A DNA stretch of 64,000 bases from an uncultured Gilliamella sp. (GTDB lineage Bacteria > Pseudomonadota > Gammaproteobacteria > Enterobacterales > Orbaceae), in the NCBI GenBank assembly GCA_946480175.1, contig CAMLIK010000004.1, positions 1 through 64,000 on the forward strand, given 5' to 3'. Under the pieces are notes generated by a model. The model saw nothing but the letters and a program-made list of their open reading frames with translations. It was not told the DNA's origin and did not search any database. The position numbers were made by a program, and so were the translations under genes. Positions 13,313-29,886 of this stretch are shown in pieces; positions within the stretch are counted from its first letter, which is position 1; the number at the start of each line of letters is the position of its first letter.

Positions 13313-13580
13313 GTTTAACGCCGTATAGGTGGTTTAGAAATTTGCCATATTTCAGATCATGAATTTGCAATTGTTTAACGCCGTATAGGTGGTTTAGAAA
13401 TGAAAAGTTTTTAGTAAAAAAAGAGGATGGGTGTTTAACGCCGTATAGGTGGTTTAGAAAACAAAATAAAAGAACATTAACAATAAACAATGGTTTAACG
13501 CCGTATAGGTGGTTTAGAAAAAGTGCATTTAATATTGCAGTTCGCCCAGTTAGTTTAACGCCGCATAGGCGATAACACCA
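13313..13580 (+). CRISPR. Type I-F CRISPR array, 4 spacers
   Basis: Five 28-bp repeats (starts 13313, 13373, 13433, 13493, 13553) separate four 32-bp spacers, a 60-bp period. The first four repeats are identical, with the core CGCCGTATAGGTGG and the 8-nt handle TTTAGAAA. The fifth keeps the first 11 bases, then diverges (CATAGGCGATAACACCA), marking the old end. The leader is therefore on the left and transcription runs toward cas1. The array is short, suggesting low acquisition or recent loss. I recognise no spacer target. Confidence 0.98.
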
Positions 13581-13681: not shown

Positions 13682-14635
13682 ATGGATTTGATTCATTCGT
13701 CTGATCTTAAAACGATTCTACATTCCAAGCGTGCAAATATCTATTATTTGGAGCATTGTCGAGTTTTAGTCAATGGTGGTCGAGTTGAATATGTGACCGA
13801 TCAAGGGCAGCAGTCATTATATTGGAATATTCCAATAGCCAATACCAGCTGTATTTTACTTGGTACAGGTACTTCATTAACTCAAGCTGCGGTGCGTGAA
13901 CTTTCTCGAGCAGGAGTTATGATTGGTTTTTGTGGGGGAGGGGGAACGCCTCTATTTTCCTCGACAGAATCGGAATTTGCTTGCCAATTTTTTTCGCCAC
14001 AAAGTGAATATCGTGCAACCGAATATCTGCAAAGTTGGTGTCAATTTTGGTTTGACGATAATCTCCGCCTACAAGCCGCTAAAACCCTTCAACAACAGCG
14101 ACTCAAAATCATTCAGCAATGTTGGCCGAAATTTGATTGGCAAGTTGACGATAAGCAACTCATTACGCTGTTAAACGATGCTGAAAAACAGTTCAATGAT
14201 GCTACAACAAGTCAAGCATTGTTAGCTGCAGAAGGACGTATTAGTAAACGTCTTTATGGCATGGCAAATCAACTTACTTTACAAGATGATAATTTTAAAA
14301 GGGAGCAAGGTTCACGTGGTAAGCATTATGATCCTGCTAATCAATTTTTAGATCATGGTAATTATTTAGCTTATGGATTAGGTGCAACAGCTTGTTGGGT
14401 ATTAGGCTTACCACATGGTTTGGCTATATTACATGGCAAAACCAGACGTGGGGGGCTAGTATTTGATGCTGCTGATATTATTAAAGATGGTATTGTGTTA
14501 CCACAAGCTTTTATATCAGCTAAACAAGGTGATAGTGAAAAAGAGTTCCGACAGGCATGTATTTCTCAATTTGCACAGTTAGGTGCACTGGATATGATTA
14601 TTGATACATTGAAGCAGATAGCAGATAGAACATGA
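13682..14635 (+). CDS. cas1: CRISPR integrase Cas1, type I-F
   Basis: Cas1 with the Cas2 domain of Cas2-3 integrates new spacers. The 317 residues match I-F Cas1: SSDLKTILHSKRANIYYLEH at the start, the GFCGGGGTPLFSS loop (82-94) and likely metal ligands Glu184 (AAEGR), His251 (ILHGKTRRGG) and Asp262/Asp265 (FDAAD). It starts 102 bases after the last repeat; no clear ribosome site precedes the ATG, so the start rests on similarity. The stop overlaps cas2-3 by four bases. Confidence 0.95.
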   Translation: MDLIHSSDLKTILHSKRANIYYLEHCRVLVNGGRVEYVTDQGQQSLYWNIPIANTSCILLGTGTSLTQAAVRELSRAGVMIGFCGGGGTPLFSSTESEFACQFFSPQSEYRATEYLQSWCQFWFDDNLRLQAAKTLQQQRLKIIQQCWPKFDWQVDDKQLITLLNDAEKQFNDATTSQALLAAEGRISKRLYGMANQLTLQDDNFKREQGSRGKHYDPANQFLDHGNYLAYGLGATACWVLGLPHGLAILHGKTRRGGLVFDAADIIKDGIVLPQAFISAKQGDSEKEFRQACISQFAQLGALDMIIDTLKQIADRT

Positions 14636-17600
14636 ATATTTTACTGGTTAGCCAATGCAAGAAAAATGCATTAACTCAGACACGTCGTATTATCGATCAG
14701 TTTGCTGAACGTTGTGGTGAACGAACTTGGCAAACGCCGATGACTGCCGATGGTTTACAGACACTGTATAAATTATTACGTAAAACAGCACGAAAAAATA
14801 CTGCTGTTGCTTGTTACTGGACGCATGGAAAAAATCTAACCGATCTACTCTGGATTGTTGGCGATAAAAGTCAATTTAATCAACAAGGCCGAGTGCCAAC
14901 TAATCGTACTAAGCGCAATATATTACGCAATGATAGTGAAAATAGTTGGCAATATGCCACATCTATCCAACTTATCGCAACCATTGCTGCGCTATTGCAT
15001 GATTTGGGCAAAGCGACAGTCGGTTTTCAAGATAAATTACGGCAAAGTCGACCGGCAGGTGATCCGTATCGCCATGAGTGGATTTCATTACAGTTATTCT
15101 TATTGATGATTCGTGATTGTAATACTAATCAAGAGGTTTTAACCCGTTTAGCTAATTTTGCCGATTATCAACAAATTAAACCAGATTGGCATCATGATCT
15201 TACTAGCACAGAGAATAATGACCTCTCTCAATTACCATTATTAGCCCAATGGATTGGCTGGTTAATTGTGTCACACCATCGTATGCCGTTTTTAACATCT
15301 GTTAGTAAGGAAGATATAGAAAATAAAGATCCAAAAAACGACATAAAAAATCAAGAAATGGATATTTCGGGATTAACTATAGATGACTTCTTTAGTACTT
15401 TTACTGCGGTTGAAAACTGGGTTAGAAATAGTAATATTGAAGACAGCGCCGATTTTTGGCAACTTAAAAGTGATATAACTTTAAGCCAATCTTGGCTTAA
15501 AAAATTAAGTCGCTATGCAAGCAGGGCAATTCATCACACTCCTTTAATGCAACTAACCAATGTTGATTCATTATTATTACATCTATCACGATTAAGCCTT
15601 ATGGTTGCTGACCATAACTATTCCAGCATATCAATCAATGACAAAGAAGCCCAAAGGGTTAAAGATATTCTTATCGCCAATACCAATAAAAGCCAGCAAG
15701 CCAATCAACGATTAGATGATCATCTATTAGGTGTTGCTAATTTTACCGCTCGTTTTGCTCGCTTGCTTCCTAAAATCAACACTGAATTACCAGCAATTAA
15801 TCAGCATAAGCCATTTACGCAACGCACTATCATTAAACGCTTTCAATGGCAAAACCATGCTTTTGATTTAGCTAAAAGTTATCAACAATTAAGTGATGAT
15901 AATGGCTTTTTTGGCGTTAATATGGCATCGACCGGCTGTGGTAAAACCTTAGCTAATGGGAGAATTATGTATGCATTATCAAATCCACAGCGTGGGGTTC
16001 GATTTACGATTGCTTTAGGATTACGAGTATTAACCTTACAAACAGGTAAAGCATTACGTGAAAGATTGCATTTGACCGATGAACATTTGGCTATTTTGGT
16101 TGGTGGTCGGGCAACAAAGACCCTATTTGAGTTAGAAAATCAACCGCAAATTACTAAAAATGAAAATGAGATAAATCCAGAAACGCTTGGTTGTGAATCG
16201 ACAGGATCATTAGTCGATGAATATATTGATGTGGCAGAAAGTGGTATTGCTGACTGTGAACTTGGTACCATTATCGAAAATAGTAAGGCTCGTCAATTAA
16301 TCTATGCGCCGATTGTGACATGTACCGTTGATCACTTAATGCAAGCTAGCGAATGTCTCAGAGGTGGCAAATATATTGCCCCTACCTTAAGGTTGCTTAC
16401 CGCAGATTTAATTTTAGATGAACCGGATGATTTTGATCAGCGAGATTTACCTGCTTTGGCAAGGTTAGTTCATTTAGCCGGACTTTATGGCAGTAAAGTG
16501 TTACTTTCTTCAGCCACCTTAACGCCAGATCTGATTGCTGGTTTGTTTGATGCTTATCAAGCCGGTCGAAAAATTTGGAATCAGAATACAGGAAGGTCTA
16601 ATCAGGGGATTATTTGTGGATGGTTTGATGAATATCAGCAGTCAGTCGAACAAATAGCTGATACTGTTAATTTTAAACATCATCATACGAAGTTTATCAA
16701 AAAAAGAATAGATAAGTTGCAACAAGGGGCAATTCGTCGTCGAGGACAAATTTTAGAATTATTAAATTACTCATTACATAAAAAAGAAAATTCAGATCTC
16801 GGCTATGCTCTATTGGCGCAACAGTTATTAGATCAAGCTTATCATTTTCATTTACAGCATCATCAACAAGATCCACAAACCAACAAAAAAATTAGTGTCG
16901 GTTTAATGCGCTTTGCGCACATTGATGATGTGATGTCGCTCACTAAGCAAATCTACCAGCAAACTGAGTTACCGGCAAATGTTCAATTTCATCTGGTGGT
17001 TTATCATGCCAGACAACTGCTACTATTGCGCAGTCAATTAGAAGAAAAATTGGATAGAATTCTAAACCGTGGTGATGCTAATAAATTATTTGAACACCCT
17101 GAAATCCGTGCAGCAATAAAAGACAGTGATAAACAACATCATATTTTTATCGTCATCGGCACACCGGTTACTGAAGTTGGGCGTGACCATGATTATGATT
17201 GGGCTATTGTTGAGCCATCTTCAATGCGTTCAATTATTCAGTTAGTGGGACGAGTTTGGCGGCATAGACCGGAAAAAATAGCCGAAAGTGCCAATGTGGC
17301 GATTCTTGGCAGTAATTTAGAAGCGATGAAAAACGGCAACAATTTAGGTGTCAATAGCGCTTGTTTTACTAAACCGGGGTTTGAGCAAAAACCATTATTT
17401 TTATTAAAAACGCATAAGACTGAACAACTGATAACGTCAAAACAATTAAAAAATATTAATGCGACTCCTCGCATTATGACTGATTCGCAAGCAGGCTTAA
17501 CATTAGCAGAACTAGAACATAAGGTTATGGCAAATTTATTTCCAATCAATGTACGCAAAAGTAATTATGTTACCAGTTATTGGCAAACTGATTTAGCACA

Positions 17601-17973
17601 TCACCATTGTGTTCATCTACAGTTAATCTCGCCTTTTAGGCTGCAAGAGCAACCACAAGATGAGTATATTTGCCAACTTGATGACAACGGTGAATACCGA
17701 TTTAGTTATGCCGAAATTGCTTGGCAAAAACCAAACGAACAGTGTGAGGATACACAAAATTACAATTTTAAATATGATAATTGGCAATTTACCAATCCAC
17801 TGATACAGCCATGGCTTACCAATACCGTTGAGCAAGCGATTATTCAAATCGCAGAATATTTTCCAGATAAAAATCATTATCGACTAGCTAATGATTTTTG
17901 TACTATTAATGTGAATAGCGAAACACGCTGGTGCTTTCATCCCTATTTTGGTTTTTATAAAGATAGAGGTTAA
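14632..17973 (+). CDS. cas3: Cas2-Cas3 fusion nuclease-helicase, type I-F
   Basis: This 1113-residue fusion is diagnostic of type I-F. Residues 1-95 form a Cas2-like ferredoxin domain (MNILLVSQCKKNALTQTRRI). The HD nuclease follows, with His123-Asp124 in LLHDLGKA. The SF2 helicase has Walker A STGCGKT near 432-438, a DEPD box near 597 and motif VI QLVGRVWRHR near 870. It is recruited by the Csy complex to degrade target DNA and takes part in adaptation with Cas1. No frameshift is seen. csy1 normally follows within a few bases; here 808 bases intervene. Confidence 0.96.
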   Translation: MNILLVSQCKKNALTQTRRIIDQFAERCGERTWQTPMTADGLQTLYKLLRKTARKNTAVACYWTHGKNLTDLLWIVGDKSQFNQQGRVPTNRTKRNILRNDSENSWQYATSIQLIATIAALLHDLGKATVGFQDKLRQSRPAGDPYRHEWISLQLFLLMIRDCNTNQEVLTRLANFADYQQIKPDWHHDLTSTENNDLSQLPLLAQWIGWLIVSHHRMPFLTSVSKEDIENKDPKNDIKNQEMDISGLTIDDFFSTFTAVENWVRNSNIEDSADFWQLKSDITLSQSWLKKLSRYASRAIHHTPLMQLTNVDSLLLHLSRLSLMVADHNYSSISINDKEAQRVKDILIANTNKSQQANQRLDDHLLGVANFTARFARLLPKINTELPAINQHKPFTQRTIIKRFQWQNHAFDLAKSYQQLSDDNGFFGVNMASTGCGKTLANGRIMYALSNPQRGVRFTIALGLRVLTLQTGKALRERLHLTDEHLAILVGGRATKTLFELENQPQITKNENEINPETLGCESTGSLVDEYIDVAESGIADCELGTIIENSKARQLIYAPIVTCTVDHLMQASECLRGGKYIAPTLRLLTADLILDEPDDFDQRDLPALARLVHLAGLYGSKVLLSSATLTPDLIAGLFDAYQAGRKIWNQNTGRSNQGIICGWFDEYQQSVEQIADTVNFKHHHTKFIKKRIDKLQQGAIRRRGQILELLNYSLHKKENSDLGYALLAQQLLDQAYHFHLQHHQQDPQTNKKISVGLMRFAHIDDVMSLTKQIYQQTELPANVQFHLVVYHARQLLLLRSQLEEKLDRILNRGDANKLFEHPEIRAAIKDSDKQHHIFIVIGTPVTEVGRDHDYDWAIVEPSSMRSIIQLVGRVWRHRPEKIAESANVAILGSNLEAMKNGNNLGVNSACFTKPGFEQKPLFLLKTHKTEQLITSKQLKNINATPRIMTDSQAGLTLAELEHKVMANLFPINVRKSNYVTSYWQTDLAHHHCVHLQLISPFRLQEQPQDEYICQLDDNGEYRFSYAEIAWQKPNEQCEDTQNYNFKYDNWQFTNPLIQPWLTNTVEQAIIQIAEYFPDKNHYRLANDFCTINVNSETRWCFHPYFGFYKDRG

Positions 17974-18095
17974 AAGGAGAGGTTATTTATTATTTTTTAT
18001 AAAAATTTTATATTTAAAAAAGGTGTTTCCTCAAATATTTTTATAGAAAATAATCAGCTGAGTAGTGCATGCTAGTAATGCTTGAATAATTACTC

Positions 18096-18101
18096 TATAC
18101 T
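18096..18101 (+). promoter_or_regulatory. Candidate -10 box of the mini-CRISPR
   Basis: TATACT lies so that transcription would start at about 18108, inside the first mini-repeat and ahead of its stem. The -35 region (near 18073-18078) is weak, so this is tentative. Confidence 0.4.
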
Positions 18102-18104
18102 TAA

Positions 18105-18186
18105 CTGCACTGCCGTATAGGTAGTTTAGAAACATGAAATTTTGTTTATATTTAATATTTTTACCGCCGTATAGGCGGTTTTTATT
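18105..18186 (+). CRISPR. Mini-CRISPR / CreR-like guide RNA gene inside the cas operon
   Basis: Two degenerate type I-F repeats (18105-18132 and 18159-18186) enclose one 26-base spacer (18133-18158). Repeat 1 keeps the stem-loop CTGCC-GTATA-GGTAG and an intact 8-nt handle TTTAGAAA identical to the array. Repeat 2 has a perfect Cas6f-type hairpin CCGCC-GTATA-GGCGG followed by TTTTT, which could also terminate transcription, but its own handle is lost. The parts needed to make one mature guide RNA are therefore kept and the rest has decayed. The spacer is six bases shorter than array spacers. It closely matches a site at 18235 (see that entry). Confidence 0.85.
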
Positions 18187-18199
18187 CCCATGAAATTTT
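18187..18199 (+). promoter_or_regulatory. Seed-match site for the mini-CRISPR guide, with CC PAM
   Basis: CC (18187-18188) is followed by CATGAAATTTT, identical to the first 11 bases of the mini-CRISPR spacer; 18 of 26 positions match overall. It directly abuts repeat 2. It could be a second, weaker binding site for the Csy complex, or the remains of a duplicated spacer. Confidence 0.55.
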
Positions 18200-18232
18200 T
18201 TATATTCATACACTAAGTAGACAGTTATCTTT

Positions 18233-18260
18233 CCCATGATATTTAGTTTATTTTTAAAAT
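18233..18260 (+). promoter_or_regulatory. Near-complete protospacer for the mini-CRISPR guide, with CC PAM
   Basis: The type I-F PAM CC (18233-18234) is followed by 26 bases that match the guide at 22 positions. Mismatches are at 6, 11, 18 and 24. In type I effectors every sixth base (6, 12, 18, 24) is flipped out and not read, so only position 11 should matter. The site ends five bases before the -35 box at 18265. A bound Csy complex would sit against or over the promoter. Sequence match is observed; repression is inference. Confidence 0.8.
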
Positions 18261-18264
18261 AAAT

Positions 18265-18293
18265 TTGACTAACCTTTTTTAATTCGTTATATT
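18265..18293 (+). promoter_or_regulatory. Strong promoter downstream of the protospacer
   Basis: TTGACT and TATATT are separated by 17 bases, near consensus for sigma-70. It reads toward the small ORF at 18384 and, beyond a terminator, csy1. No comparably good promoter is seen between the terminator and csy1. Confidence 0.8.
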
Positions 18294-18300
18294 CTAATTC

Positions 18301-18313
18301 GTGATTCTATCAC
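18301..18313. promoter_or_regulatory. Dyad at the predicted transcription start
   Basis: GTGAT-TCT-ATCAC is a perfect 5-bp dyad at about +1 to +13 of the promoter. It could be an operator, perhaps for the winged-helix-like product encoded just downstream. Confidence 0.45.
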
Positions 18314-18320
18314 TGTAAGA

Positions 18321-18352
18321 TTTTCCTCAGATGGTACCACATCCAAGGAAAA
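18321..18352 (+). promoter_or_regulatory. Leader hairpin with a 9-codon ORF
   Basis: TTTTCC pairs with GGAAAA and GATG with CATC across a 3x3 internal loop, with GTACCA at the tip. The stem buries an AAGGA motif. A tiny ORF (ATG at 18331, 9 codons, TAA ending at 18360) begins within it. It could be a translational control element or a small toxin-type ORF; this is not established. Confidence 0.4.
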
Positions 18353-18383
18353 GTGTTTAAACCTAATTAGAATGGAAAAAACA

Positions 18384-18707
18384 ATGAATAATTCTAAACA
18401 TTTAATACTTCGGTGTCAAATTAGCTTTGGTAAAGAAGACTTAGTTAAATTGCAAAAATTTATGGTTAATATAAAAGCTGCTAATGATGAAATTATTATT
18501 TTTGATTCAATAGATCGATCTAAAGATTATAGTGTCAAAGATATTATGATAATGTTTAATATTTCAACTAGAAAAGAAGTTGAAATATTGATTAAAAACC
18601 TAGAATTGAATCAAACTACATACTGTCGTATTAAGAACAATGAGTGGTTTTATAATATGGATGCAATCAATAGATTAAGTTCATATTTGAAATTTAGAGT
18701 AGCATAA
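18384..18707 (+). CDS. Unrecognised small protein in the cas operon, winged-helix-like
   Basis: A 107-residue basic protein I do not recognise. Residues 50-74 (SVKDIMIMFNISTRKEVEIL) look like a helix-turn-helix and 76-90 like a wing, so DNA binding is plausible. ATG at 18384 is chosen because GGAAAA lies seven bases before it; an in-frame ATG at 18372 has no ribosome site. The codons are AT-rich like the rest of the insertion. It has its own promoter under a guide-matched protospacer and its own terminator. It could be a regulator of the csy genes, or a cargo/toxin gene kept silent by the Csy complex. Neither is shown by the sequence. Confidence 0.7.
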   Translation: MNNSKHLILRCQISFGKEDLVKLQKFMVNIKAANDEIIIFDSIDRSKDYSVKDIMIMFNISTRKEVEILIKNLELNQTTYCRIKNNEWFYNMDAINRLSSYLKFRVA

Positions 18708-18716
18708 AAACGAAAC

Positions 18717-18750
18717 AAAAGGCTTATACTTAATTGTATAAGCCTTTTTT
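18717..18750 (+). terminator. Strong terminator between the small ORF and csy1
   Basis: AAAAGGCTTATAC and GTATAAGCCTTTT form a 13-bp stem with a 6-base loop, ending in six Ts. It lies ten bases after the ORF stop and only 31 before csy1, so csy expression must come from read-through, attenuation, or a promoter hidden in this short gap. Confidence 0.85.
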
Positions 18751-18781
18751 GTTTAGTATTTGGAATATATAAGGAGGGCCA

Positions 18782-20164
18782 ATGAATCATATTTCTTGGC
18801 AAGATATAAGAAAGGTTATTGTCGACTTTCTTCAGCAACGGCTTGCTAATAACAGCAGTTATAAAAGTGAACTGACCAAATTAGAAAAAGCCAAACAGGC
18901 AGGCGATCAAAAGACTGTTAATGAATCTCAACAAAGGATTTTAGAACTTAGTAATAGATTTGATTTTGAAACTTGGATGGAAGATGCCGCTACACGTCGT
19001 TATTCTTGGATCCTCATTGCGACCCACCTGTCAAAAGGTATTCACCCAAGCTCTAAAGGAAGTAATGCGAACTACAATACTCAAATAAAACCTGATGTTT
19101 TTAATAATTTTATCTCATCTGCAACAATTGATAAGCTACCCTTTGATGCAACAGGTGGTGCATCGGCATTAGATATTTTTGGTCTACTGAAACAGGTTGT
19201 TAAAGATGATATAACTATTCTACAGTTAATTATTAACCGTCATCCAGAAGTTAAAAAAGCTTTATCAGATGATGAAAATAAAGCAACTATTTATTTAGAA
19301 AATTTCAGTAAATTTCTTAATGATAATTGGAGTAAACCGCAAGCTTCTGAGCTTAATAAACAATTATATTGGCCGAATAGTGAAGAAAGTTATTTATCAC
19401 AAAAGGAGGATAATTATCGCTTATTGATTCCATTGCATCCATCATCTTTATGCCATCTAGTTTACCAAAAAGTACAGGCTAGATTTTCGGAAGAAAATAA
19501 ACAAGTACGCGAACAAAGACGAATAAAGAATATTGAACACAAATCTTATATATCTTTTCATGATCTTGCTGTCGTTAAATTGGGTGGAAGTAATGCGCAA
19601 AATGCTAGCCAACTTATAGGTAGCCAAATGGGACGTAATTTCTTATTGCCTTCTTTGCCTCCTCAATTTAGTAAAACTTCTTATCCATCATTTTCAAATG
19701 AACAAGAAACTATTTTTAACAGATCTTTACAATATTATTGTCGATTTGGCTTCAAATTATTATTTGAAACCATTAATGCTGAAAAAAATGATTTTTCTCG
19801 AAGAAGCAACAGAAGAGAATCTTTTTTTCTGATTTTAACGATGATTTTTAAGTATGTTAAACATCTTCAAACGTCTAAATATGCAGGTTGGAGTCGTGAA
19901 TCTTCATTAAAATTAGAACAGCAACTTTGGCTTGATCCGAATAGAGCAAATCTAGATGGAGAAGAAAAATTTAAACAAGAATATAATCGAGCTGATTGGC
20001 ACGTTAATTTAGAAAAAGATTTTGCTTTCTGGATACAAACAATTCTAAAAGACAAGTTCGGTCACATTTCAGAACAATTTTCAGACCCAGAATTTGAAAA
20101 ATGGCGCAGAGAGTTTCGGTTTGTATTAAAATCCAATAAACCACGAGGTAGGAGGATAAATTAA
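18782..20164 (+). CDS. csy1: Csy1 (Cas8f), large subunit of the Csy complex
   Basis: Cas8f forms with Cas5f the tail of the type I-F effector; it reads the CC PAM and recruits Cas2-3. The 460-residue length is normal. Recognisable stretches are the N-terminal RRYSWILIATHLSKGIHPSS, the middle FHDLAVVKLGGSNAQNASQL and the C-terminal WRREFRFVLKSNKPRGRR. It has a very strong AAGGAGG site. Its stop overlaps the csy2 start by one base. It opens the four-gene effector operon. Confidence 0.94.
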   Translation: MNHISWQDIRKVIVDFLQQRLANNSSYKSELTKLEKAKQAGDQKTVNESQQRILELSNRFDFETWMEDAATRRYSWILIATHLSKGIHPSSKGSNANYNTQIKPDVFNNFISSATIDKLPFDATGGASALDIFGLLKQVVKDDITILQLIINRHPEVKKALSDDENKATIYLENFSKFLNDNWSKPQASELNKQLYWPNSEESYLSQKEDNYRLLIPLHPSSLCHLVYQKVQARFSEENKQVREQRRIKNIEHKSYISFHDLAVVKLGGSNAQNASQLIGSQMGRNFLLPSLPPQFSKTSYPSFSNEQETIFNRSLQYYCRFGFKLLFETINAEKNDFSRRSNRRESFFLILTMIFKYVKHLQTSKYAGWSRESSLKLEQQLWLDPNRANLDGEEKFKQEYNRADWHVNLEKDFAFWIQTILKDKFGHISEQFSDPEFEKWRREFRFVLKSNKPRGRRIN

Positions 20165-21087
20165 TGGCATCTTTAAAATACTATCTTCTATTTGACCATA
20201 TTAAAGTTCACAACGCCAATGCAATCTCCAGTCCATTAACTTATGGTTTTCCGGCTATCTCGGGCTTTTTAGGGGCGATCCATGCCTTAAATCGAAAAAT
20301 TGAGTCGGATCATCCTATTTATTTAGATGGCGTATTAATCGCTTGTCATGAGTGTGATGTACAAGTTTATCGACCTAATAATTATACTGATTATACATTT
20401 CGACTCACTCGCAACCCACTAGCTAAAAATGGTGATACCCGCTCGATTATCGAAGAAGGACGGGTTGATCTTGATGTTTCTTTAATTGTTGAAGTGAAAA
20501 TTGAAGGACGTAGGGCATTATTTAGTAAGGAGCTACAGCAACAATTCGTCAAACAAGTTGAGCAAAAAATTTACCAACAACGTATTGCTGGTGGTTATAT
20601 TACTGAAATTGCTTCAATAGAGTTATATTCTTCTTCTAGCGCAGAAGATCGAGATATATTAATTAAAGCTTTATTACCAGCCTTTGTCTTGGTTGAAGCA
20701 CAGCAAGAGTTACAGGAAATCACCGCCGAGCTACAACAAAAAGATCCGAATGCTACTGCACTTGATGCGTTAGTTGAAACTGCCATGTTGCATCATCATC
20801 CGCAAGAAAAAGATCAATGGCAAACCACCTCGGTCAAGCAGGGGCGAGGTTGGTTAGTGCCGATACCACTTGGTTATCAAGCTATTTCACCACTGTTTGA
20901 CGCAGGAATGGTTGAACATGCCCGTAGTAATCAATATCCAACACAATTTGTCGAATGTATTTATGGATTAGGTAAGTGGGTATTTCCACTAAGGTTACAA
21001 GACAATTTATCACAAGCATTTTGGCGTTATAAATGCAGCGAACTGCAATCGAATGACGCAGATATTTATATTATTAATCAAGATTAA
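20164..21087 (+). CDS. csy2: Csy2 (Cas5f)
   Basis: Cas5f caps the 5' handle of the crRNA and pairs with Cas8f. The 307 residues begin with the family pattern of a RAMP beta strand (LKYYLLFDHIKVHNANAISS) and TYGFPAISGFLGAIHAL, and have the conserved GRGWLVPIPLGYQAISPLFD near 228-247. The stop-start overlap with csy1 indicates coupling. Confidence 0.94.
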   Translation: MASLKYYLLFDHIKVHNANAISSPLTYGFPAISGFLGAIHALNRKIESDHPIYLDGVLIACHECDVQVYRPNNYTDYTFRLTRNPLAKNGDTRSIIEEGRVDLDVSLIVEVKIEGRRALFSKELQQQFVKQVEQKIYQQRIAGGYITEIASIELYSSSSAEDRDILIKALLPAFVLVEAQQELQEITAELQQKDPNATALDALVETAMLHHHPQEKDQWQTTSVKQGRGWLVPIPLGYQAISPLFDAGMVEHARSNQYPTQFVECIYGLGKWVFPLRLQDNLSQAFWRYKCSELQSNDADIYIINQD

Positions 21088-21122: not shown

Positions 21123-22136
21123 ATGAGTAAAGATAAAATCACTACCGCATCAGTATTAGCCTTTGAACGTAGTTTTGATATTTCTGATGCCATTTTTGCC
21201 CAGCAAAAGAGCCATGATGATCAAAAATTAACACCAGTTTTATTATCTGAAAAATCTGTTCGCGGTACCATTTCGAATCGGCTTAAAAATGCTTTAGCAA
21301 ATGATCCGGCTAAATTAGACGCTGAAATTCAAAAAGCTAATTTACAAACAGTCGATGTGGCAGCGCTTGATGCCGATAAAGATACCTTAGTGGTTAAATG
21401 GAGCTGTAAAGTACTACCTTTCTTAGGTTCGCCATCAGTCTGTAATGATATTGATTACCAAGAAGAGTTAACCAAAACGACTCAAAGCTATATTAAGGCT
21501 GAAGGGATGCAAGCACTAGCTAAACGTTATGCAATTAATATATTAAATGGTCGTTGGTTATGGCGTAATCGTATGACTGCTGAACAAATCAGTATTAGCA
21601 TTACTCGTAAAAAAGATGGCAAAATAGCAACGATTGAAGTGAGTGATGTTAAGCAATATCAATTAAATTCATTTGATTATGATGACAAATCGCTGAATGA
21701 CCTTGCCGCCTTGATTGAAGCTGGCTTATTAGGCAAAGAGTTTGTTATTTTCGATATTCAAGCCAAATTAAAAATGGGATTGGGGCAAGAGGTCTATCCA
21801 TCACAAGAATTGATTTTGGATACTGGCAAAGAAAAAAGTAAAGTCCTGTATGAAAAAAATGGTCAAGCTGCAATGCACTCGCAAAAAATCAGCAATGCCA
21901 TTCGAACTATTGATACTTGGTATGATGAAAAAGCCGAATTTCCGATTGCCATTGAACCTTATGGTGCAGTTACTACTATGGGACATGCTTTTAGACAACC
22001 TAAACAAAAACAGGATTTTTATACCTTATTTGATAATTGGGTACTGAAAGGAGAAAAACCAACGCTTGAACAACAACATTATGTTATCGCTGTTTTGATT
22101 CGTGGTGGTGTATTTGGTGCTAGTGGTAAGGAGTAA
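21123..22136 (+). CDS. csy3: Csy3 (Cas7f), backbone subunit
   Basis: Cas7f polymerises along the guide, each copy covering six bases and flipping out the sixth. The 337-residue protein shows ASVLAFERSFDISDAIF near the start, ILNGRWLWRNRMTAEQI in the middle and VTTMGHAFRQPKQKQDFYTL near the end, all typical of I-F Cas7. It follows csy2 by 35 bases with an AAGGA site. Confidence 0.95.
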   Translation: MSKDKITTASVLAFERSFDISDAIFAQQKSHDDQKLTPVLLSEKSVRGTISNRLKNALANDPAKLDAEIQKANLQTVDVAALDADKDTLVVKWSCKVLPFLGSPSVCNDIDYQEELTKTTQSYIKAEGMQALAKRYAINILNGRWLWRNRMTAEQISISITRKKDGKIATIEVSDVKQYQLNSFDYDDKSLNDLAALIEAGLLGKEFVIFDIQAKLKMGLGQEVYPSQELILDTGKEKSKVLYEKNGQAAMHSQKISNAIRTIDTWYDEKAEFPIAIEPYGAVTTMGHAFRQPKQKQDFYTLFDNWVLKGEKPTLEQQHYVIAVLIRGGVFGASGKE

Positions 22137-22140
22137 TATT

Positions 22141-22704
22141 ATGCTTACTCACTATTTTGAACTACGGGCAATTCCACAACTGGAGATAACTGAAACTGAA
22201 GTGATTAATCAAGTTATGCAATCACTGCATCAGGTATTAGTTAACCATCAAGGCAATATTGCAGTTAGCTTCCCTTGTTATAATGTACATCGTACCTTAG
22301 GTGGTATTATTCGAATATTTGGCGATGAAACGCATTTACAACTGTTTAAAACTGCCTTGCAAGCGGTGGTTAGCGACTACACAATTGCCCTGCCAACTAC
22401 CCCTATACCGACAAGCGTTAAAGGTTATTTACGGTTAATTCGCGTTAATCCTAAAGGGCAAAGCGCTTTAAGGCGAGCCGAAAAGCGTTTAACCGTACAA
22501 GGTAAATGGTCAACCGAAGTAAAAAATAAGATGCTTGAAAAATGGGGCAGCGTTCATTTGAACTATCCACACATCCATTTTGCCAGCAAAAGTACAGGGC
22601 GACACTTTATTATGTGGCTAAAACAACAAAAATGTGCAACGGCTGTTGAAGGAACATTTAATAGCTACGGACTTAGCAAAACAGCTACCGTTCCTGATTT
22701 TTAA
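22141..22704 (+). CDS. cas6f: Cas6f (Csy4) crRNA endoribonuclease
   Basis: Cas6f cuts the CRISPR transcript 3' of each repeat stem and stays bound to it. The 187-residue product begins LTHYFELRAIPQLEITETEV; His30 is a likely catalytic residue, in the place of His29 of Pseudomonas Csy4. The C-terminal KSTGRHFIMWLKQQ and the SYGLSKTATVPDF end are typical. ATG at 22141 follows AAGGAG closely; an upstream in-frame start inside csy3 is not needed. It should process both the main array and the mini-CRISPR, whose stems share the GTATA loop. Confidence 0.93.
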   Translation: MLTHYFELRAIPQLEITETEVINQVMQSLHQVLVNHQGNIAVSFPCYNVHRTLGGIIRIFGDETHLQLFKTALQAVVSDYTIALPTTPIPTSVKGYLRLIRVNPKGQSALRRAEKRLTVQGKWSTEVKNKMLEKWGSVHLNYPHIHFASKSTGRHFIMWLKQQKCATAVEGTFNSYGLSKTATVPDF

Positions 22705-27174: not shown

Positions 27175-28230
27175 ATCGACTCGATCATCCTTTATGATTT
27201 TACATAAAAATAGTAAACTTGACTACATGACTTATATGCCTAATAATCAAGTACATAAAAAATGAGTTATATTTATAATTAAAAAGGATGATATATGAAA
27301 TTCTTTAAAAATTTATTAAGAAAAAATCAAGAGGTTGTTCGAACTGGAGAACGTCAAGAAAAACATTCATTTGAAGCACTTACCGAACAATATGTTGGAC
27401 TTGCTTTTGAAAAACAAATGGATTTAGATGGTGTTATTGACAATAAGCCTTGGCAAATTGATATGGACAAACAGCAACTTATTTTTGGCAATGATGTATA
27501 TTGTTCTTTTCAGCTATTAGGAACCTTTTCGCATTCGACTAAGACTTGGCTTTGGGCTTGGGCAAATGAACAATCGGGTCTTCCTAAAGATGTCATTGAG
27601 CAGTCTCTTGAGCTTAAAAAATGTGGTGAACAGAACAATATTGATTTATTTAAATTTCCTAAGTTTGATGCCACCCAAGACGATCTACATCTATTTGGAA
27701 TTATCGCTAGTGGTATGTTTAATTCAAGTGGTTATTATGTTGCTGATTATGGTCAAGGTACACTTGTGTTAACTTTTAATAATGAACGTATTGACCAAAT
27801 TCATCAAGAGAACAATACTCATTACCGCGTTGCTAGCGTAATCTCGCAATATATTGCCAATTTTGAAGTGAATCACTATGCTGCGATAAAATACTATTTG
27901 CTGGCTAAAGATTATCAAATAACGTTTGATGATGGTTTAAAGCTGATCGCAACCAAAGGTGAAAAACAAATTAGCGCAGAATTTGACGACTCATTGCGCT
28001 TACGTAATCTTGATACATCTTGTGATGATTCAGATTTTATCAAAACCAAAGAAGAAAACTAAATCAGTGCAGAATTTGGTGATTTATCGTGCATAATTAA
28101 ACCAATGGCCAAAAGGAATTATTAGTAATAACACATGTAAAACTCTATTAACAGGATATTAATCGGACATGAAATATAGAAAACGCTAGTTAAATTACAT
28201 AAATGACTGATTAGATAAAAAAGAGAAAGT
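27175..28230 (+). repeat. First copy of a diverged tandem duplication
   Basis: Upstream sequence, gene body and downstream sequence here recur at about 28560-29990. Shared marks include TAAACTTGACT-like upstream DNA, an almost identical central coding block, and the AAATGACTGATTAGATAAAA string after both genes (28199 and 29969). Immediately after the first gene's stop lies a second, out-of-place copy of the gene tail (28063-28150). Confidence 0.7.
27295..28062 (+). CDS. DUF6882-like protein, cytoplasmic copy
   Basis: A 255-residue acidic protein without a signal peptide. Its core (FGNDVYCSFQLLGTFSHSTK, then TWLWAWANEQSGLP) resembles DUF6882 proteins, which I recall only by name; function unknown. 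The core is about 85 percent identical by eye to the product of 29014-29886, but the N-terminal 35 residues and the last 25 differ. It starts after AAGGATG. The pairing with a secreted paralogue next to Rhs debris suggests an immunity or accessory role in toxin exchange; that is inference. Confidence 0.6.
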   Translation: MKFFKNLLRKNQEVVRTGERQEKHSFEALTEQYVGLAFEKQMDLDGVIDNKPWQIDMDKQQLIFGNDVYCSFQLLGTFSHSTKTWLWAWANEQSGLPKDVIEQSLELKKCGEQNNIDLFKFPKFDATQDDLHLFGIIASGMFNSSGYYVADYGQGTLVLTFNNERIDQIHQENNTHYRVASVISQYIANFEVNHYAAIKYYLLAKDYQITFDDGLKLIATKGEKQISAEFDDSLRLRNLDTSCDDSDFIKTKEEN

Positions 28231-28295
28231 AGCCGAATATTTTATATTACACCATCAAAATACTCTTATCGGTATATATGTTCTGAGCAGTGACC

Positions 28296-28320
28296 GCCGG
28301 ATACCCATCCGGCTTTTTCT
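28296..28320 (+). terminator. Intrinsic terminator
   Basis: GCCGGAT-ACCC-ATCCGGC followed by TTTTTCT. It is a classic shape, about 230 bases after the DUF6882-like gene and probably its terminator. Confidence 0.8.
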
Positions 28321-28324
28321 AATA

Positions 28325-28423
28325 TTAATCGTTAGCTGCATAACCGTATTCCCCCACTGTTTTTAGTATCCAGTCAAACATTTCATTGATCAAATCAGGT
28401 AGACCATTATTTCCTGCATTCAT
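28325..28423 (-). pseudogene. Short remnant, 32 codons on the minus strand
   Basis: Reads MNAGNNGLPDLINEMFDWIL then KTVGEYGYAAND. It ends right against the terminator and has no recognisable upstream part. It looks like the tail of a larger decayed gene; I cannot assign a family. The rest of 28424-28815 is AT-rich DNA that repeats the upstream region of the first DUF6882-like gene. Confidence 0.3.
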
Positions 28424-28815
28424 TTCCAACTTATCCTAACCGCAGCAACCGATGTGCCTAATAAACTAAGTAAGCATTATAATAAGTTTGATATCTTATA
28501 AAGCGAAAATTAAACCAGATTTAATAACGGAAACCCATCAATAGGTAACGATAGTAGATTTTATCTATCTTCATCTCTATGATTTTGAATAAAAAAAGTT
28601 AACTTGACTGTACAACTTACTTGCTTAATAATTGAGCGCATAAAGTGGGAAATGAATTATAATAAAAAGGGGTTAGGTTATTTCTCCTACTTAAACGCTG
28701 AAATAACAGGTAGCAAATTGACAACATTCTCTTAAAAATTTCACTGGATGAATTTATAAAAATTAAATTATTAAAAATATTGAGTAATATTTAAATCTAA
28801 AAATAAGGACGATAT

Positions 28816-28977
28816 ATGAAATTCTGGAAAATATTATTATCAAAAAGCAAAGAACTTGACCAATTTGTTACTTCGCAAGCGAAACAAGAGCCCAATATTC
28901 AAAAATACTTAACTGATACTACAATTCGCAAAGTAATTTGTGTACCAGGAAAGTTATTAAATCTAGTTGTAAGTTAA
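28816..28977 (+). CDS. Truncated paralogue / 53-residue ORF
   Basis: ATG behind AAGGACG encodes MKFWKILLSKSKELDQFVTS and continues to VPGKLLNLVVS. Its start copies that of the DUF6882-like gene (MKFFKNLLRKNQE), with the same ribosome site context, but the core is gone. It is most likely the 5' end of the second duplicate, cut off when the secreted version took over the core. Whether it is expressed is unknown. Confidence 0.45.
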   Translation: MKFWKILLSKSKELDQFVTSQAKQEPNIQKYLTDTTIRKVICVPGKLLNLVVS

Positions 28978-29013
28978 TATTGTTGGATAATTGAAATATA
29001 GGCGGTAATACCA

Positions 29014-29886
29014 ATGAAAAAATATTTAGCTTTAGTGATGTTATTGACAATATCACTAACTGGTTATGGCGCTCATTTGCAGCATGAAGCAGAAGTTCCA
29101 GCTCAATTTAAAACACCCTTTTATATTAATAGTGATCCTTATGGCCGTTTGACTAGAGACATTAAAGCGTTACAACACGACAATAGCGTAATTCTACCTA
29201 ATCTTAATGCTAAACAACATCAAGAAAAACATCCATTACAACCACTTATTGAACAATATGGAGGGATTGGTTTTGAAAAGCAAATTGATTTAGAAGATGT
29301 CATTGTCGATAAGCCTTGGGAAATTGACATGGATGAACTGCAACTTGTTTTTGGTGATGATTTACACTGTTCTTTTCAGCTATTAGGAACCTTTTCGCAT
29401 TCGACCAAGACTTGGCTTTGGGCTTGGGCAAATGAACAATCGGATCTTCCTGAAGATGTTATTGAGCAGTCTCTTGAGCTTAAAAAATATGGTGAAGAGA
29501 ATAATATTGATTTATTTAAAACGCCTAAATTTGATGCCACCGAAGACGATCTACATCTATTTGGACTTATTGCTAGTGGTATGTTTAAATCAAGTGGTTA
29601 TTATATTGCTGATTTTGGTCAAGGTACACTTGTGTTAACTTTTAATAATGATTATATTGACCAAATTCATAAAGAGAACGACACCCATTACCGCGTTGCT
29701 AGCGTAATCCCACAATTAATTGCCGATTATGAAGTGAATCACTATGCTGCGATAAAACACTATTTGCTGGCTAAAGATTATCAAATAATATTTGATGATG
29801 GTTTAAAGCTAATCGCAACTAAAGGTGGAAAACAAATCACCGCGGAATTTGATAATTCATCGCGCATAATTGGACTAAAAAGCTAA
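29014..29886 (+). CDS. DUF6882-like protein, secreted copy
   Basis: 290 residues with a signal peptide (MKKYLALVMLLTISLTGYGA, cleavage near residue 20), then about 55 residues unique to this copy, then the same core as the upstream paralogue (FGDDLHCSFQLLGTFSHSTK). The core is probably periplasmic here and cytoplasmic in the paralogue. This fusion of a new exported N-terminus onto a duplicated domain is unusual. It is followed by Rhs debris. Function unknown. Confidence 0.6.
   Translation: MKKYLALVMLLTISLTGYGAHLQHEAEVPAQFKTPFYINSDPYGRLTRDIKALQHDNSVILPNLNAKQHQEKHPLQPLIEQYGGIGFEKQIDLEDVIVDKPWEIDMDELQLVFGDDLHCSFQLLGTFSHSTKTWLWAWANEQSDLPEDVIEQSLELKKYGEENNIDLFKTPKFDATEDDLHLFGLIASGMFKSSGYYIADFGQGTLVLTFNNDYIDQIHKENDTHYRVASVIPQLIADYEVNHYAAIKHYLLAKDYQIIFDDGLKLIATKGGKQITAEFDNSSRIIGLKS

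Follow-up and report, generated by a model that had tools for sequence, protein, structure and literature searches.

A mini-CRISPR between cas3f and csy1 of a Gilliamella type I-F locus is predicted to guide repression of a putative csy operon promoter

The autorepression of SpyCas9 is a type II phenomenon that employs a natural single guide. Several related arrangements have been described, in which a CRISPR effector controls expression. SpyCas9 keeps down its own expression, a repression that is lifted by anti-CRISPRs (PMC13131331); CreR, an RNA-guided autorepressor, is reported for types I-B, I-E, and V-A (PMC13131331) and, in another account, for type I and V-A (PMC12737573). In the type I-F CreTA system of Acinetobacter, the target governs the expression of a small bactericidal RNA that contains a 33-bp ORF and is divergent from creA (PMC10097628), and in CrePA, a protein toxin, CreP, typically with a KilA-N domain, is controlled (PMC12737573). 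Neither a CreR of type I-F nor the Gilliamella region analyzed here was found among the literature matches listed (subscription papers, for the most part, and supplements were outside the scope). From its sequence, the system described below is predicted to work like CreR, as a type I-F variant.

The window, that is, the whole 64-kb stretch of DNA that was analyzed, comes from Gilliamella, a bee-gut bacterium, and encompasses a type I-F CRISPR-Cas locus with the gene order array, cas1f, cas3f, mini-CRISPR, target sites T1 and T2, promoter-like element, a small gene denoted orf111, terminator-like hairpin, and csy1-4. The array and the cas genes are the following:

13313..13580, + strand, main CRISPR array (type I-F), comprising four GTTTAACGCCGTATAGGTGGTTTAGAAA repeats plus a fifth, degenerate one, with 32-nt spacers
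13682..14635, + strand, cas1f (TIGR03637, E 2e-143)
14632..17973, + strand, cas3f (TIGR02562, E 0)
18782..20164, + strand, csy1 (cas8f; TIGR02564, E 2.2e-101)
20164..21087, + strand, csy2 (cas5f; TIGR02565, E 2.1e-103)
21123..22136, + strand, csy3 (cas7f; TIGR02566, E 1.2e-127)
22102..22704, + strand, csy4 (cas6f; TIGR02563, E 9.3e-40)

Outside this locus, at 27295-29886, the window contains two adjacent gene copies (88% over 300 nt), the first of which encodes a DUF6882 protein.

The mini-CRISPR consists of two repeat-like elements, R1 and R2, flanking a short guide:

18096..18101, + strand, predicted mini-CRISPR -10 element, TATACT, directly before R1 (by sequence)
18105..18132, + strand, R1: 5-bp Csy4-type stem-loop (18110-18124) followed by the handle TTTAGAAA
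18133..18158, + strand, guide, 26 nt
18159..18186, + strand, R2: hairpin ACCGCC-GTATA-GGCGGT (18163-18179) and T-rich tail

The handle of R1 is identical to that of the array, and its loop is GTATA. Comparison of the 19 Orbaceae loci with a guide-site pair, the window included (see below), shows that TATACT is present at the equivalent place in 17. Over the 13 of these 19 loci that were included in the stem comparison, all cells of the R1 stems (100%) are paired, seven cells being changed on both sides, and the covariation score of the stem was matched by none of 500 shuffles; in the same 13 loci, neither the pairs changed on both sides (242/500) nor the further pair types (441/500) were above the shuffles. 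The Csy4-type stem of R2 is stronger than that of R1, and the conversion of its handle into a T-rich tail makes R2 score as an intrinsic terminator as well; a GC-rich 5-bp stem occupies the R2 position in all 19 loci. R2 appears to be a Csy4 hairpin and an intrinsic terminator in one. The region contains three terminator-like sites, compared with a shuffle mean of 0.2. Viewed by eye, most of the 19 loci have a T-rich tail at R2 where a handle would be.

Two CC-preceded sites directly downstream of the mini-CRISPR match the guide:

18187..18214, + strand, target T1: CC (18187-18188) and site 18189-18214, 18/26 matches to the guide
18233..18260, + strand, target T2: CC (18233-18234) and site 18235-18260, 22/26 matches to the guide

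The original prediction had singled out T2, and both the alignment of the guide (18133-18158) with this site at 22 of 26 positions, with mismatches at 6, 11, 18, and 24, and the CC in front of it were reproduced upon realignment; the distance from T2 to TTGACT, which had been given as five bases, is actually four. T2 is the top match among all 4,230 sites preceded by CC in the whole window (both strands), the runners-up being those at 18189 (T1) and 40550, with 18/26 each, and a match of 22/26 at a CC site between the guide and orf111 was attained by one of 20,000 shuffled guides. T1, which the original prediction had overlooked, matches guide positions 1-11 throughout, and its CC directly follows R2. 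A tandem target pair like T1/T2 is also seen in one relative (G021, locus L045).

T2 is adjoined by a promoter-like element, behind which lie a leader hairpin, orf111, and a terminator-like hairpin:

18265..18293, + strand, promoter-like TTGACT-N17-TATATT, adjoining T2 (consensus match, 10/12)
18324..18349, + strand, leader hairpin before orf111
18372..18707, + strand, orf111, 107 aa if the start is ATG 18384, as indicated by relatives
18717..18748, + strand, intrinsic-terminator-like hairpin between orf111 and csy1, scored in the window alone

TTGACT-N17-TATATT, originally described as a strong promoter next to T2, is indeed present, but the promoter call is weak by itself because positions 17900-18900 contain 9 promoter-like matches, and shuffled versions of this stretch average 6.6 (sd 2.4). 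A leader hairpin of the AAACCCC...GGTTT type was found in 7 of the 14 orf111 loci that were folded, the hairpin in the window being different; the leader hairpin is perhaps an additional control point. In the predicted structural model of the orf111 product, the C-terminal part is a MerR/ParB-like winged helix, and, going by this model, orf111 is predicted to encode a small DNA-binding protein, not a known type of toxin. PADLOC produced no hit for orf111, and when orf111 and 14 relatives were scanned against Pfam, no KilA-N domain was listed at E 0.1. The gene is present in 15 of the 23 genomes with csy1 and in none of the 21 genomes without csy1. All 15 orf111-csy1 gaps viewed, including that of G013, contain a hairpin recognizable by eye.

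Related loci provide the principal evidence on the connection between the guide and its site. In the family search, csy1 was identified in 23 of the 44 genomes, and the region upstream of csy1 was read in all 23 Orbaceae loci; the relatives (20 loci) include Gilliamella species, Frischella japonica, an Orbaceae bacterium, and Candidatus Schmidhempelia bombi. In 19 of the 23 loci, the cas3-csy1 gap holds a mini-CRISPR, along with a matching downstream site; no guide-site pair was found in the other four, in which the gap is short (G012), the contig ends (G013), or the layout is different (G029 and G041). The 19 guides carry 14 distinct 11-nt seeds, each of which has a fitting site further downstream in the locus that it comes from; this includes more GC-rich seeds (for example, ACATTACGATT and ATATTACGGTT). 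The dinucleotide at the place of the PAM is CC in 17 of the 19 loci and CT in two; the best targets preceded by CT, in L052 (G017), L046 (G031), and the Pasteurellaceae-type locus L145, match well otherwise.

The specificity of this fit was assessed by a permutation test (20,000 permutations), in which the best downstream CC site for each guide was identified in the guide's own locus and contrasted with the best sites in the remaining loci. The sum of mismatches over 11 nt was 20 for the own loci versus a permuted mean of 84 (smallest, 50), and over 18 nt, it was 68 versus 154.5 (smallest, 112), and neither sum was reached by any of the 20,000 permutations; these permutation values, as well as the Fisher test values given below, overstate independence, given that the best-fitting sites were chosen as targets and that the loci share ancestry. 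When the search is limited to CC sites, the guides of G031 and G017 fail to beat shuffled guides (fractions of 0.14 and 0.65-0.80, respectively). The check for compensatory changes in relatives that accompanied the original prediction was thereby run across species, and guide and target were found to co-vary over 19 loci and 14 seeds. Several loci deviate in layout. In G019 (L054) and G014 (L055), the unit consisting of the R1-like sequence, guide, target, promoter-like element, and leader is duplicated in tandem, and the guide of the first unit also fits the second, promoter-proximal site; G017 carries an extra mini-CRISPR unit in front; and in G018 (L061), csy1 is split over two frames, which may be a sequencing error, with the guide, site, and orf111 apparently intact.

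The distribution of mismatches along the guide was examined in the 19 pairs, the target in each being the site with the fewest mismatches over 18 nt, with positions unweighted; the tie between T1 and T2 in the window was settled for T2 (with T1, position 12 is mismatched in 15/19 pairs and position 6 in 6/19). There are no mismatches at positions 1-5, 7, and 8, two each at 9, 10, and 11, and one at 13, compared with 7 at position 6, 14 at position 12, and 9 at position 18. Positions 6 and 12 combined are mismatched in 21 of 38 cases versus 3 of 76 for positions 5, 7, 11, and 13 (Fisher 7.6e-10, a value inflated by kinship); for the 13 loci that remain when G019, G009, G025, G022, G008, and G001 are left out, the respective fractions are 15/26 and 3/52 (Fisher 8e-7, again inflated by kinship). 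Position 18 is not distinct from position 19 (mismatched in 9/19 and 10/19 pairs, respectively). In tests, I-F complexes proved tolerant of mismatches that recur at each sixth position (PMC7305327), and the gathering of mismatches at positions 6 and 12 is what would be expected for unread bases, in agreement with this tolerance. The 6-nt mismatch rhythm originally proposed from the window alone is thus clear across the 19-locus set but mild in the window's single pair, where it is suggestive: three of the four mismatches fall on multiples of six (chance about 0.006, by simple arithmetic), and the mismatch at 11 misfits, the flipped-out position being 12, and so lies outside the pattern.

The identity of the gene behind the targeted site varies among the loci. 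In 14 of the 19 Orbaceae loci, including the window, orf111 comes first; the other five (G008, G022, G024, G025, and G026) lack orf111, and csy1 starts 131-141 bases past the site start. In G008, G025, and G026, the best promoter-like element is found 65-75 bases past the start of the site, and the promoter-like call in G022 is weak; in G024, a hairpin-like remnant before csy1 can be discerned by eye. The promoter-like elements beside the targets, identified by consensus only, are oriented like the guide and read towards orf111 or csy1. Six Pasteurellaceae-type loci carry similar guide-site pairs, and in five of these, the distance from the start of the site is 33-42 bases to the beginning of a -35-like element and 95-105 bases to a start codon. 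This codon, the first to follow the targeted promoter-like element, belongs to the csy1 frame in three of the six (L085, L136, and L145) and, in L133 and L134, to an ORF of 63 aa, hydrophobic at one end, that takes the slot of orf111, just upstream of csy1, and has an identical copy in Pasteurella canis. In L114, the CC site overlaps the guide's own R1, not a downstream promoter, some 60-80 bases ahead of the csy1 open frame, and mismatches within the first 19 bases are limited to positions 6 and 12.

Because csy1 comes first in 5/19 Orbaceae and 3/6 Pasteurellaceae-type loci, the common output is likely to be the csy operon, with a small gene sometimes interposed. Of the two options originally put forward, csy autorepression of the CreR kind is accordingly better supported than control of a cargo gene. 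In the other 14 of the 19 loci, csy output would depend on read-through because orf111 and the terminator-like hairpin precede csy1.

The explanation that we favor, with a probability of roughly 0.8, is that the mini-CRISPR and the Csy complex repress the promoter of orf111 and csy1-4, which would amount to CreR autorepression in a type I-F version. The mini-CRISPR (18105-18186) would yield a crRNA-like RNA that loads into the Csy complex: transcription would begin at R1, just downstream of TATACT, and stop at R2, and Csy4 would trim both hairpins to produce an RNA of ~54 nt (8-nt handle, 26-nt guide, and 20-nt 3' hairpin). Carried by the guide to T1 (18189) and T2 (18235), Csy would block the promoter at 18265, probably sitting on both sites without cutting; we infer the lack of Cas3 cutting at T1/T2 because complementarity fades in the PAM-distal half, as in CreA and CreR systems. 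Transcription would extend into csy1-4 by reading through the hairpin behind orf111, given that just 33 bases lie between this hairpin and csy1. When array crRNAs or phage anti-CRISPRs occupy or block Csy, repression would lift, and more Csy would be produced. The predicted small DNA-binding protein encoded by orf111 would be a co-regulated accessory. A more elaborate scheme, which we put forward tentatively and consider rather doubtful, is that one RNA-guided promoter restrains both the csy operon and a swappable, lineage-specific small gene, such that anti-CRISPR attack would increase Csy and, at the same time, trigger a second response based on a protein; the swappable slot would harbor a winged-helix regulator in Gilliamella and Frischella and the 63-aa protein in Pasteurella.

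An unlikely alternative, yet the most serious one, is that the guide mainly silences orf111, in the manner of CrePA or CreTA, with orf111 freed when Csy fails and csy1-4 expressed otherwise or secondarily. The position of orf111 as the first gene behind the target in most Orbaceae loci, with the terminator-like hairpin after it, its confinement to genomes with csy1, the occupation of its slot by a different small ORF in two Pasteurella-type loci, and the location of the Acinetobacter I-F CreTA in the same cas3-csy1 gap (PMC10097628) are all compatible with such a guard. However, 5/19 Orbaceae and 3/6 Pasteurellaceae-type loci retain both guide and site with csy1 directly behind; in addition, the orf111 product resembles a DNA-binding protein and not a known toxin, PADLOC gives no hit for it, and G018 retains orf111 next to a frame-split csy1 (this split possibly being a sequencing error).

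The remaining two explanations dispense with regulation altogether. That the mini-CRISPR is a decayed remnant of an array, with an old self-matching spacer and no current role, would account for the degeneration of R2 and of the last array repeat and for the guide lengths, which range from 20 to 38 across loci; it is nevertheless highly improbable, considering that the guide-site fit is maintained through 14 distinct seeds, that conservation extends to the stem, the handle, and the TATACT preceding R1, and that the mismatches track the read and unread positions. Chance similarity between AT-rich sequences is the least credible of all: both the guide and the region are AT-rich, and the best CC sites of G031 and G017 are no better than those of shuffled guides, but the match in the window was equaled by a single shuffled guide among 20,000, none of the 20,000 cross-locus permutations reached the observed fit, and the G/C-richer seeds fit their sites too.

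If autorepression by the mini-CRISPR is borne out, RNA-guided self-control of CRISPR would extend to type I-F, a subtype much used for anti-CRISPR study, and Csy production would be turned down by its own complex and likely released when phages block Csy. It can be predicted that I-F anti-CRISPRs raise csy expression in these hosts. The guide-site pairs would provide a natural evolutionary readout of the guide bases that are read by the Csy complex, along with ready test pieces for partial-match repression without cutting.

Compared with the known systems, the predicted mode of action in the window resembles SpyCas9 autorepression in that the effector would lower its own expression, with relief by anti-CRISPRs (PMC13131331), and CrePA in that a crRNA-like RNA and the effector would restrain a protein-coding gene (PMC12737573); unlike in CrePA, KilA-N is absent among the Pfam hits listed for orf111. 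With the I-F CreTA of Acinetobacter, the window shares the location in the cas3-csy1 gap, the two repeat-like hairpins, the short guide, the CC-flanked partial target, and, as predicted here, Csy as the repressor (PMC10097628), whereas the target in the window precedes orf111 and csy1 and is co-directional with the guide. The closest resemblance is to CreR, with which the window shares a mini-CRISPR beside the cas genes, a crRNA-like guide, a partial match to a putative cas promoter, and predicted release by anti-CRISPRs or crRNA abundance. In contrast to CreR, however, the window system belongs to type I-F, and the motif is CC or, in rare cases, CT; R2 also acts as a terminator-like hairpin by its sequence; the targets in the window and in G021 are in tandem; and a small ORF is often located between the promoter and csy1.
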